Assembly: GCA_963995525.1 (NCBI GenBank)
Contig: OZ023205.1
Location: forward strand, 50,503,681 to 50,567,680
DNA length: 64,000 nucleotides
Source of the DNA: Escarpia spicata
Taxonomy: Eukaryota > Annelida > Polychaeta > Sabellida > Siboglinidae
Reading direction: 5' to 3'
The position numbers and the translations under genes are program-made. Positions 12,501 through 18,500 of this stretch are shown here, in pieces. Below the pieces are notes generated by a model, which did no database searches, had not been told where the DNA came from, and saw nothing but the letters and a program-made list of their open reading frames with translations. The stretch's first letter is position 1, and each line of letters starts with the position of its first letter.

Positions 12501-15500
12501 CATCAACTTTACAAAAAAGGTTAGTTTTTTGCATTTTTCTCAACATTGTATTTTCGGCATATGTTCTGTATGAAAAAACTAGAACAGGTAAATTATACAA
12601 GGTACAGTCAAGAAATTTTCATTAATTGTTCCCTGTATTTTAAGACATCTAAATTATTAATCAATCATCTAAAACACCCTTATTGTATACAATAACCATT
12701 CAAGCTGTCATATAATGCAAAATAATAAATATGGGATTAATATATTTCTCAGAATAGTGATTATTGGAAACGTATGCTAATTGTTACAAGATTTTCGGTT
12801 ACCATGGCAACCATTATACAAATGAGCTATAATTTTATATTTTGTCTAGTTTTCACGTAACAAACAGGTATAGCAAATTTAGTCAAGATTTGTTGAATAT
12901 AAAGGGAGATATCGTATAAGCCTCCTTTCGACCAGTCGCTAGCCTTAAACTAGATTCACAAGGGGAATTCACAGAGAAGCCTGAAACTGAAGGTATAGTT
13001 AAAAACAGCAGAAATAAATCGGCAAAGAACAGCCTGGAAAACTCTTCTGAATCAGGATAAAAATACGTTTGTTTAAATGCAAGGAGCATAGTAAAAAAAA
13101 ATTATTATAGAAGATATTGACCCTCACATAATAGGTATAACCGAATCATGGGCCACCACTGATATATCAGATGCTGAAATGGGACTGACAGGCTATGTAG
13201 TGTTTAGGAAAGATAGAATAGGAAGAACGGGAGGTGGAGTTATTTGATATGTTAAAGAATCTATCCAAGCTTATGAAATAAAATTAGAAAGAGAATCAGA
13301 TTGCGAAGAAGCTGTTTTATGTAACATAGTTACAGGAAACTCAACATTAACAGTTGGGTTAGTTTATCGAAGTCCAAACATAAGCATAGAAGAGAATGCG
13401 GAAAATGAAATTTCAATACAAATCTTCAAAAATCACAAATCTCGAAGTGTGTGTCCCATTAAACAACTGCCTTATGTTTTTGCCATAAAGAAAAACAGTT
13501 GGGGCTACAATTTTAACAAAATGTACATTCAACGGAATGTCTGAACACTCCATGTGTTTGGCATCCATTTTTCATGGTTTGACGGACCTTGTTGGGCAAT
13601 AGGTCACATGATGGACAGTTGTATGATTGTGTTTTCATGTGGGTGTTTAGACTGTGTGTGGATGTATAGATTACGTGTGTGATCTTTGTACAGTACAGTG
13701 AGAAGTTCAGTGATATTGCTAAGGACATCATGGCTTTGCTGTGTGTGGGTGTATAGATTACATGTGTGATCTTTGTACAGTACAGGGAGAAGTTCAGTGA
13801 TATTGCTAAGGACATCATGGTGTTGCTGTGTATGGGTGTATAGATTACGTGTGTGATCTTTGTACAGTACAGTGAGAAGTTCAGTGATATCGCTAAGGAC
13901 ATCATGGTGTTGCTGTGTGTGGATGTATAGATTACATGTGTGATCTTTGTACAGTACAGTGAGAAGTTCAGTGATATCGCTAAGGACATCATGGTGTTGC
14001 TGTGTGTGGATGTATAGATTACGTGTGTGATCTTTGTACAGTACAGTGAGAAGTTCAGTGATATCGCTAAGGACATCATGGTGTTGCTGTGTGTGGATGT
14101 ATAGATTACGTGTGTGACCTTTGTACAGTACAGTGAGAAGTTCAGTGATATCGCTAAGGACATCATGGTGTTGCTGTGTGTGGATGTATAGATTACATGT
14201 GTGATCTTTGTACAGTACAGTGAGAAGTTCAGTGATATCGCTAAGGACATCATGGTGTTGCTGTGTGTGGATGTATAGATTACGTGTGTGATCTTTGTAC
14301 AGTACAGTGAGAAGTTCAGTGATATCGCTAAGGACATCATGGTGTTGCTGTGTGTGGATGTATAGATTACGTGTGTGATCTTTGTACAGTACAGTGAGAA
14401 GTTCAGTGATATCGCTAAGGACATCATGGCTTTGCTGTGTGTGGGTGTATAGATTACATGTGTGATCTTTGTACAGTACAGGGAGAAGTTCAGTGATATT
14501 GCTAAGGACATCATGGTGTTGCTGTGTGTGGGTGTATAGATTACGTGTGTGATCTTTGTACAGTACAGTGAGAAGTTCAGTGATATCGCTAAGGACATCA
14601 TGGTGTTGCTGTGTGTGGATGTATAGATTACATGTGTGATCTTTGTACAGTACAGTGAGAAGTTCAGTGATATCGCTAAGGACATCATGGTGTTGCTGTG
14701 TGTGGATGTATAGATTACGTGTGTGATCTTTGTACAGTACAGTGAGAAGTTCAGTGATATCGCTAAGGACATCATGGTGTTGCTGTGTGTGGATGTATAG
14801 ATTACGTGTGTGACCTTTGTACAGTACAGTGAGAAGTTCAGTGATATCGCTAAGGACATCATGGTGTTGCTGTGTGTGGATGTATAGATTACGTGTGTGA
14901 CCTTTGTACAGTACAGTGAGAAGTTCAGTGATATCGCTAAGGACATCATGGTGTTGCTGTGTGTGGATGTATAGATTACGTGTGCGATCTTTGTACAGTA
15001 CAGTGAGAAGTTCAGTGATATCGCTAAGGACATCATGGCGTTGCTGTGTGTGGATGTATAGATTACGTGTGTGACCTTTGTACAGTACAGTGAGAAGTTC
15101 AGTGATATCGCTAAGGACATCATGGTGTTGCTGTGTGTGGATGTATAGATTACGTGTGTGATCTTTGTACAGTACAGTGAGAAGTTCAGTGATATCGCTA
15201 AGGACATCATGGTGTTGCTGTGTGTGGATGTATAGATTACGTGTGTGATCTTTGTACAGTACAGTGAGAAGTTCAGTGATATTGCTAAGGACATCATGGT
15301 GTTGCTGTGTGTGGATGTATAGATTACGTGTGTGATTTTTGTACAGTACAGTGAGAAGTTCAGTGATATTGCTAAGGACATCATGGTGTTGCTGTGTGTG
15401 GGTGTATAGATTATGTGTGTGATCTTTGTACAGTACAGTGAGAAGTTCAGTGATATCGCTAAGGACATCATGGTGTTGCTGTGTGTGGATGTATAGATTA

Positions 15501-18500
15501 CGTGTGTGATCTTTGTACAGTACAGTGAGAAGTTCAGTGATATTGCTAAGGACATCATGGTGTTGCTGCATGTGGATGTATAGATTACGTGTGTGACCTT
15601 TGTACAGTACAGTGAGAAGTTCAGTGATATTGCTAAGGACATCATGGTGTTGCTGCATGTGGATGTATAGATGACGTGTGTGATCTTTGTACAGTACAGT
15701 GAGAAGTTCAGTGATATTGCTAAGGACATCATGGTGTTGCTGCATGTGGATGTATAGATTACGTGTGTGACCTTTGTACAGTACAGTGAGAAGTTCAGTG
15801 ATATCGCTAAGGACATCATGGTGTTGCTGTGTGTGGATGTATAGATTACGTGTGTGACCTTTGTACAGTACAGTGAGAAGTTCAGTGATATCGCTAAGGA
15901 CATCATGGTGTTGCTGTGTGTGGATGTATAGATTACGTGTGTGACCTTTGTACAGTACAGTGAGAAGTTCAGTGATATCGCTAAGGACATCATGGTGTTG
16001 CTGTGTGTGGATGTATAGATTACGTGTGCGATCTTTGTACAGTACAGTGAGAAGTTCAGTGATATCGCTAAGGACATCATGGTGTTGCTGTGTGTGGATG
16101 TATAGATTACGTGTGTGACCTTTGTACAGTACAGTGAGAAGTTCAGTGATATCGCTAAGGACATCATGGTGTTGCTGTGTGTGGATGTATAGATTACGTG
16201 TGTGATCTTTGTACAGTACAGTGAGAAGTTCAGTGATATCGCTAAGGACATCATGGTGTTGCTGTGTGTGGATGTATAGATTACGTGTGTGATCTTTGTA
16301 CAGTACAGTGAGAAGTTCAGTGATATCGCTAAGGACATCATGGTGTTGCTGTGTGTGGATGTATAGATTACGTGTGTGATTTTTGTACAGTACAGTGAGA
16401 AGTTCAGTGATATTGCTAAGGACATCATGGTGTTGCTGTGTGTGGGTGTATAGATTATGTGTGTGATCTTTGTACAGTACAGTGAGAAGTTCAGTGATAT
16501 CGCTAAGGACATCATGGTGTTGCTGTGTGTGGATGTATAGATTACGTGTGTGATCTTTGTACAGTACAGTGAGAAGTTCAGTGATATCGCTAAGGACATC
16601 ATGGTGTTGCTGTGTGTGGATGTATAGATTACGTGTGTGATTTTTGTACAGTACAGTGAGAAGTTCAGTGATATTGCTAAGGACATCATGGTGTTGCTGT
16701 GTGTGGGTGTATAGATTATGTGTGTGATCTTTGTACAGTACAGTGAGAAGTTCAGTGATATCGCTAAGGACATCATGGTGTTGCTGTGTGTGGATGTATA
16801 GATTACGTGTGTGATCTTTGTACAGTACAGTGAGAAGTTCAGTGATATTGCTAAGGACATCATGGTGTTGCTGCATGTGGATGTATAGATTACGTGTGTG
16901 ACCTTTGTACAGTACAGTGAGAAGTTCAGTGATATTGCTAAGGACATCATGGTGTTGCTGCATGTGGATGTATAGATGACGTGTGTGATCTTTGTACAGT
17001 ACAGTGAGAAGTTCAGTGATATTGCTAAGGACATCATGGTGTTGCTGCATGTGGATGTATAGATTACGTGTGTGACCTTTGTACAGTACAGTGAGAAGTT
17101 CAGTGATATCGCTAAGGACATCATGGTGTTGCTGCGTGTGGATGTATAGATTACGTGTGTGATCTTTGTACAGTACAGTGAGAAGTTCAGTGATATTGCT
17201 AAGGACATCATGGTGTTGCTGTGTGTGGGTGTATAGATGACATGTGTTTGGTGTTTTTGCAGTTCATTGAGAAGTTCCGGGACATCGCGAAGGACATCAT
17301 GGTGTTGCCGAGCATCCACCACTACGACATGATCCACCTGAACTGTGAGGATCTGAAGCACGGCCTCTCTAACACGGCCAAGAACCTCGCTGACATCCTT
17401 CTCGACCGTGTCGCCACTGACCACCGCACCGAGAACAAGGGGTGAGAACATGTGCAACAGCCAAGGCTCTTATTGCATTTACGGTGATGTTTAGTGGGTA
17501 ACATTTGAGGTGGTGTTTAGTGGGTAACATTTGGGGTGATGTTTAGTGGGTAACATTTGAGGTGGTGTTTAGTGGGTAACATTTGGGGTGATGTTTAGTG
17601 GGTAACATTTGGGGTGATGTTTAGTGGGTAACATTTGGGGTGATGTTTACTGGGTAACATTTCCGGTGATGTTTAGTGGGTAACATTTCCGGTGATGTTT
17701 AGTGGGTAACATTTCCGGTGATGTTTAGTGGGTAACATTTGGGGTCAGATATGGTCAGTTTAAAGAATAAGTGAAATGCTAAATCCAAGCAGCCCTTACT
17801 TTGATGATGTCACCAGCGGTCGCTGGGTGTCGCAACAAACCATGCAGAAATTGTACGGAAAAACGTGACCAAAAGGGTCCTTGAAAAGAGTGACAGTGGG
17901 TTAAAAAAATTGTTGACTAGCAGGTTTTTTTAGTGTATTTAATTCAGATTAGAAATAAAAATGATTAATTTCACTTTGTCTTTAAATGGTGCTAGACTTA
18001 CCAGAATCTGACGACATTACATGTGTGTTTGGTAGGATCTGTGACGAGTTCAAGACGATACAGAAGCGTGCCAAAAAGGAGCCAGAGACTTCAGAGGAAC
18101 TCATGGAGATGACTCTGTTTGTGGAGCAAGCCCGCTCCATCGGCATGATCAGTCTCAATCAGAGAATCAAGGTGAGATATCTCGACATCCTCTTACCCTA
18201 TCCAAAGTCACCAAATGAATATCATTGTGCCGACACTCCTTCTGAAATACATATGCCTGCGAACCCTCCCAGATTTTTCGATGGTATCCCAGATTTGTTC
18301 TTTATTTCAGAAAAAATCATAAATCATCAAGATTGTAGGCTTTTATGTGTAATTGTAGTTTTTTGTGAGCCGCAAGGGGGTGAATCTTTGAGAAAATGTA
18401 CTGGGAGGTGGCACAGTGACAATATGACGGTGAAACTATATTAATGAATCACAAAAATTTGTGTAGTGCCATTTCCAGGCTCCACTGCTTAAAAGTTCTT

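Follow-up and report, generated by a model that had tools for sequence, protein, structure and literature searches.

Minisatellite-like duplication of intron/exon boundaries has been described in the globin genes of amphioxus (PMC3087553). Such structures are called mirages, a name that comes from the amphioxus Adh3 gene, as cited in the same source. The globin mirages (BflGb6, BflGb9) have 6 and 3 units in two haplotypes, with a unit of 150–160 bp; both 5′ and 3′ boundaries can be duplicated, and the mechanism is called unclear (PMC3087553). Further amphioxus genes with mirages are PGBD5 and troponin C (PMC3902484), and regular splicing is seemingly undisturbed by these structures (PMC3087553, PMC3902484). 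The present analysis concerns an array of this kind in the dynein gene DNAH12, within a stretch of 64,000 nucleotides (contig OZ023205.1, positions 50,503,681 to 50,567,680, forward strand) which is called the window. Here, 41 units of 87 bp, each comprising the end of an intron and the start of the next exon, precede the true exon. The term mirage is used for the structure, not for a lineage.

Repeats at splice junctions are also known from human segmental-duplication genes, where internal tandem repeats at exon-intron boundaries can alter splicing; about half of them lie in coding exons, and the units average 30 bp in 4 copies (PMC2812944). The Rogers model explains intron gain by the tandem duplication of AG/GT signals (cited in PMC3087553). 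Minisatellites have been reported from the introns of earthworm metallothionein, and the available part of that source does not describe splice junctions as involved (PMC12783039). The literature search, made mostly at the level of titles and the beginnings of abstracts, retrieved no junction arrays recognised in other invertebrates, and the name mirage was met only in the amphioxus literature.

The DNAH12 array resembles the amphioxus mirages in three respects: its tandem units span the boundary, with both intron and exon sequence in each of the 41; it adjoins the true boundary, as mirages do on the acceptor or donor side; and the AG is present in 41 of 41 units, as AG or GT is in many mirage units. 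It differs in that amphioxus is a cephalochordate with mirage units of 10–160 bp, whereas the 41 units of 87 bp lie in a lophotrochozoan-like genome, and in that a donor of a dynein paralogue on C3 is accompanied by about 69 units (58 bp each), against the 6 and 3 units of the globin genes. With the human repeats (PMC2812944) the array shares the position of minisatellites at exon-intron borders; unlike those repeats, which can form novel introns, it leaves the true exon intact and keeps its copies inside an existing intron. Tandem duplication copying splice signals is also the core of the Rogers model, but here an existing DNAH12 intron was lengthened and no new intron was seen. The potato RNA-dependent RNA polymerase (RdRp) gene is reportedly a case of intron gain by tandem duplication.

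The 87-bp junction array of DNAH12

The array-bearing gene is a DNAH12 orthologue, which was top-ranked for two of two separate queries (phmmer against solved chains). A model of 40 exons was derived from tblastn matches of the Lineus protein, combined with a search for splice sites. Repeats were located with Tandem Repeats Finder (TRF). The features of the array-bearing region are the following.

9502..9593, plus strand: DNAH12 exon that directly precedes the array-bearing intron (Lineus tblastn matches and splice-site model)
9594..17262, plus strand: array-bearing intron, phase 0, 7669 nt (exon model)
13655..17221, plus strand: 41 units of 87 bp, each with 39 nt of intron end including AG and 48 nt of exon start (TRF, unit parsing, alignment)
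17222..17262, plus strand: true end of the intron; the intronic half of the unit is homologous to it (alignment)
17263..17441, plus strand: true exon, the 8th found in the window and most likely source of the 48-bp exon-like part (exon model)

The homology, the unit count, the reading frames and the duplicated block described here are read directly from the letters, as are the relative site scores given below. TRF delimits the array at 13652–17308 with a period of 87, 42.0 copies and 96% matches, and its copy 42 is the true junction, i.e., the diverged terminal copy of the array. Unit parsing gives 41 decoys whose exon-like starts run from 13694 to 17174, followed by the true exon at 17263; the spacing is 87 bp in 40 of the 41 intervals and 89 bp in the final one, which leads to the true exon. 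The exon-like 48 bp align without gaps to the true exon start in all 41 units, with 38–41 of 48 positions identical, and every unit carries an AG directly before this part and, in frame, a TAG at codon 21. On the intronic side, 29–34 of 39 positions agree with the end of the true intron, with one 2-nt gap. Since the homology lies on both sides of the border, the unit is a copy of the whole junction. Aligned with the start of the next exon, the unit obtains a score of 63; no other exon end of the 40-exon model gives more than 20, and none of 300 shuffled units reached 63. In the whole assembly of 1.06 Gb (1,060,511,957 bases in 1097 contigs), at least 42 scored matches to the unit were obtained, all within the array and its junction.

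The first-pass annotation of the window had described about 41 units of 87 bp, with an AG and an ungapped 48-bp match to the exon, running up to the true exon of a motor gene, with an in-frame TAG in every decoy. All of this was borne out, and the match exceeds chance. Its inference that a duplication spanning the boundary seeded the array agrees with the alignment of both unit halves to the true junction.

Among the 41 units there are 17 variants, differing at 14 variable columns, and a block of six units is present twice, 15 units apart. This suggests that the array grew partly by multi-unit steps. The direction of copying may be read from the protein: in the solved DNAH12 chains 8j07 and 9fqr the stretch starts with FI and ends with LP, like the true exon, while the units have YS and LL. 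These residues make it most likely that the array descends from the exon, and not the reverse. On the minus strand (window 13516–17469), the array is crossed by two open frames, 1318 and 1219 codons long; they are judged to be a side effect of the repeat, whose period of 87 is divisible by three and whose unit is free of stops in those frames.

Strength of the decoy splice sites

Site matrices were built from 37 junctions of the DNAH12 gene, with the first junction excluded and the true acceptor scored leave-one-out. The true acceptor reaches 9.67 bits and the 41 decoy acceptors 2.23–4.38 bits; a second AG, five bases downstream of the decoy AG, scores 1.2–2.8 bits. The 41 decoy acceptors of the first-pass annotation are thus present as AG dinucleotides in every unit, but as sites they are weak. 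Among the donor-like strings that are frequent in the array, TAC/GTGTGT (the slash marks the border) ranks first, with 6.61 bits and 29 copies. It outscores 12 of the 37 true donors and is located after the TAG; a unit that became part of the mRNA would therefore probably bring its stop along. The string GAT/GTATAG, which the same annotation had proposed as an escape donor, does not appear among the array's top 14 donor-like strings, and a decoy exon held in frame through it was dropped as a candidate because the donor is weak. The units are not ratchet sites either, as their AG has no directly following GT and they read TACAG/TACAG/TGAG or GGAG.

Further arrays at exon edges in the same gene

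For 78 exon ends of the gene, 40 nt of exon each were compared with the introns of the same exon. Two ends matched, both acceptors: that of the exon at 17263 (55 matches, partial ones included) and that of the exon at 27290 (15). In all other introns the two exons gave 3 and 0 matches, and their reverse complements 0 and 0. A donor array that escaped this exon-only scan was found by TRF and parsing, which brings the junction-containing arrays of the DNAH12 gene to three. These and two related arrays without exon sequence are the following.

26434..27289, plus strand: second acceptor-junction array, 19 copies of AG and the first 15 nt of exon 27290 (TRF, exon-end scan, parsing)
27290..27557, plus strand: true exon after the second array (exon model)
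24268..24389, plus strand: exon whose 3′ end is copied in the donor array (exon model)
24390..24580, plus strand: donor-junction array, 20-bp unit, exon end TTCCCAAG/GTGAGATC copied 9 times (TRF, parsing)
43542..44608, plus strand: 38-bp array ending 9 nt before exon 44618, with 18 nt common with the true intron end (TRF, alignment)
54627..57821, plus strand: 45-bp array of 72.5 copies ending 9 nt before exon 57831, with 21 nt common with the intron end (TRF, alignment)

The copies at 26434–27289 are identical to the exon start at 12–15 of 15 positions and are mostly spaced by 36 or 44–46 bp; the 46-bp consensus agrees with the true junction at 42 of 42 positions. The donor units at 24390–24580 match TTCCCAAG/GTGAGATC at 9–13 of 16 positions and keep the GT in 8 of 9 cases. 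Some of them read pyrimidine tract-CAG/GTGAAA, which we take to resemble the points of recursive (ratchet) splicing. Alignment to the exon ends revealed no exon sequence in the units at 43542–44608 and 54627–57821, and none was detectable in this way in 15 of the 18 intron-placed arrays of the window.

The position of these 18 arrays was compared with uniform placement, one array at the window edge being dropped. Within 35 nt of an exon lie 11 of the 18, against 3.3 expected (P = 2e-6), a limit picked after inspection of the data. At other limits the counts are 5 of 18 against 1.2 expected (up to 10 nt), 8 against 2.2 (20 nt, P = 7e-5), 11 against 4.3 (50 nt) and 11 against 7.2 (100 nt, P = 0.02). 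Besides the junction-containing arrays, eight further ones lie 9–35 nt from an exon without detectable exon sequence, those at 43542–44608 and 54627–57821 included. Such an excess near exons points beyond mere tolerance: junctions may be subject to a mutational bias, or arrays lying elsewhere may have been lost.

Junction arrays in other dynein genes

A search for the dynein AAA family in the assembly gave 30 loci of about 3.2 kb. Two of them belong to the DNAH12 gene itself and were excluded, and the 28 examined come from 14 dynein places outside it. Arrays holding both the junction and exon sequence were found in 3 of these 14 places (C8, C11 and C3). The exon ends in these genes were inferred from tblastn matches together with GT/AG, not from full models.

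C8, 52.457 Mb: acceptor-junction array, 75 bp, 3.1 copies, 52/53 identical to the junction (basis, match ends)
C8, locus L042, 4645–5025: donor array, eight decoy donors at a spacing of about 50 bp
C11, 32.17 Mb: donor-junction array, 25-bp unit, with 3.5 copies at the exon and another 16.4 about 260 nt further on
C3, 70.07 Mb: donor-junction array, 58 bp, 28–29/30 over the matched stretch
C3, same dynein gene: second donor array, 55 bp in 18 copies, 42/42 identical to the junction

The total elsewhere is therefore five junction-containing arrays in three other dynein genes. The C11 array is identical at 16 of 17 positions over the matched stretch (score 29), and the 58-bp array on C3 has 69.1 copies over 4 kb. 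This copy number, the second C3 donor array and the C8 donor array emerged when 50 kb of the C3 and C8 genes were examined. Two more arrays on C3 start about 4 nt inside the intron, without exon sequence. Excluded from the count were a candidate acceptor array on C8 with a score of 25 (130 bp in 2.7 copies, 14/15 at the junction) and two matches that scored lower, 22 and 24. As judged from their identity to the junction (52/53 on C8, 42/42 on C3), the arrays in other dynein genes look younger than the 87-bp array. The first-pass annotation had assumed that ordinary intronic minisatellites hold no sequence of the next exon; this is contradicted by the amphioxus mirages and by the seven further junction arrays in four dynein genes, DNAH12 included.

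The C8 donor array stands at an exon end encoding EYLERERASFPR, which by eye would seem to be the counterpart of the exon end at the 24390–24580 array of DNAH12. Seemingly counterpart exon ends of two dynein paralogues thus both bear donor arrays, with different units.

No junction arrays were found at the 60 match ends of 30 myosin-head loci at a score limit of 32, where the ends are those of hidden Markov model matches and not modelled exon ends, the limit would miss the C11 array (29), 14 of the 30 loci have no listed array and many loci look like copies of one another. This count of 0 in 30 speaks against an equal effect on every gene family.

Origin of the array and alternative explanations

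The 87-bp array is, with good probability, a mostly neutral, junction-spanning intronic minisatellite of the mirage type, which is excised with its intron. For the order of events, the splicing outcome and the near-neutrality, we infer the following course. A short tandem duplication would have copied the last ~39 nt of the intron and the first 48 nt of the exon. The downstream copy would have retained the intact exon and acceptor, and the upstream copy would have turned intronic and become free to drift. Such a mutational account is the most economical: a duplication over a junction leaves one intact junction, and therefore it would be tolerated by selection. Later expansion may have been the usual minisatellite process, in which the upstream copy multiplied to 41 units, partly via duplicated multi-unit blocks. 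The spliceosome would most likely bypass the 41 weak acceptors and take the last, strong one, so that the array leaves with the intron. Judging from the sequences compared here, splice junctions of these dynein genes appear to have given rise to repeat arrays on more than one occasion.

Several observations weigh against this reading. Of the 37 modelled true acceptors, 6 score below the median decoy, although some of these may be mis-modelled, and among the 187 AGs elsewhere in the intron four exceed 8.8 bits (best 11.69); therefore, site scores alone cannot decide usage. In addition, units differ from one another at 4 of the 48 exon-derived columns and at 10 of the 39 intronic ones (Fisher P = 0.04). 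Such a lower variability of the exon-derived part is not what strict neutrality predicts, although the shared ancestry of the units weakens this test.

The same difference in variability would fit the idea that the units serve as splicing decoys or poison exons, whose occasional use adds the TAG and lowers DNAH12 output, so that array length tunes expression. That all 41 units retain both the AG and the in-frame TAG, and that 29 strings TAC/GTGTGT, stronger than 12 of the 37 true donors, follow the TAG, points in this direction too. However, the decoys are at least 5 bits weaker than the true acceptor, recent copies of one founder would retain AG and TAG without selection, and the arrays of unrelated units at donors and acceptors of other dynein genes favour a mutational cause. 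Such a regulatory function is therefore considered improbable.

Arrays of near-identical units are often mis-sized in assemblies, and the count of 41 comes from the assembly sequence alone. An assembly artefact, in the copy number or in the whole array, is nevertheless a very slight prospect, given the ordered differences between units, with their variants and the repeated six-unit block, the true junction, which is separate and diverged from the units, and the arrays of the same design at other loci. An exon-like match produced by chance, or by a mobile element common to array and exon, can practically be discarded in view of the shuffled units and other exon ends, none of which comes near the score of 63, the lack of any scored unit copy elsewhere in the assembly, and the expectation of only ~3e-5 such 48-nt matches in 55 kb of introns at 35% base identity.

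The host gene and other sequences of the window

A rough DNAH12 query of 2320 residues, 2220 of them scored, was compared with known proteins. Among the best 120 of 3984 matches, the DNAH12 proteins of Lineus longissimus and Owenia fusiformis rank first (64% each), followed by Lingula (63%) and Branchiostoma belcheri (58%); mollusc DNAH12 proteins in this set mostly reach 56–64% over at least 92% of the query, and up to 68% over shorter parts. The gene model is 72% identical to the Lineus DNAH12. In a quick tree of 26 proteins, the nearest rows to the DNAH12 of the window by path are Owenia, Lineus and Lingula; the window protein falls in no small supported clade, and the lophotrochozoans are scattered. 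Since its DNAH12 is closer to Lineus and Owenia than to Branchiostoma, the host is, by this protein, a lophotrochozoan-like animal and not a cephalochordate. Its assembly of 1.06 Gb also has roughly double the size of an amphioxus genome. Weak spots of the exon model are the unsettled junction between the exons near 2631 and 2952 and the low-scoring acceptors at 61583, 53453 and 30146.

The window also contains a 26-bp minisatellite (CACATACCATCCAGTCCAAACATGCA, rotated in one place) at 1–499 (19.2 copies) and 5370–6599 (47.3 copies). From their translations, 27952–28497 presumably holds a remnant resembling a non-long terminal repeat (non-LTR) reverse transcriptase, and 35712–36423 one that we take to resemble a Tc1/mariner-type transposase. 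Elsewhere in the assembly, the small contigs C228 (6496–7296) and C105 (1705–2502) carry ABC-transporter matches that cover almost all of the family model, each within a single open frame (720 and 732 codons); these contigs are possibly bacterial contamination.

Implications

Compared with amphioxus, the lineage, the copy number (41, and ~69 in the paralogue) and the recurrence across dynein genes seem to be new, and the mirage structure is now seen in a lophotrochozoan-like genome, with far more copies. A broader proposal is advanced tentatively, at somewhat less than even chances: in this genome, exon-intron junctions would be preferred birthplaces of minisatellites, and dynein introns would grow from their ends by repeated copying of junctions, at donors as well as acceptors, at different times and to at most ~69 copies. 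If this is true, genes run with trains of decoy splice sites. The age range of the arrays within one genome (52/53, 42/42 and 38–41/48 identity to the junction or exon) lets their birth and decay be traced, and the arrays are ready tests of how the spliceosome chooses among 41 near-copies and of how introns lengthen. If it is true genome-wide, splice-site choice must reject dozens of near-copies at many junctions, which would constitute a natural experiment on exon definition.

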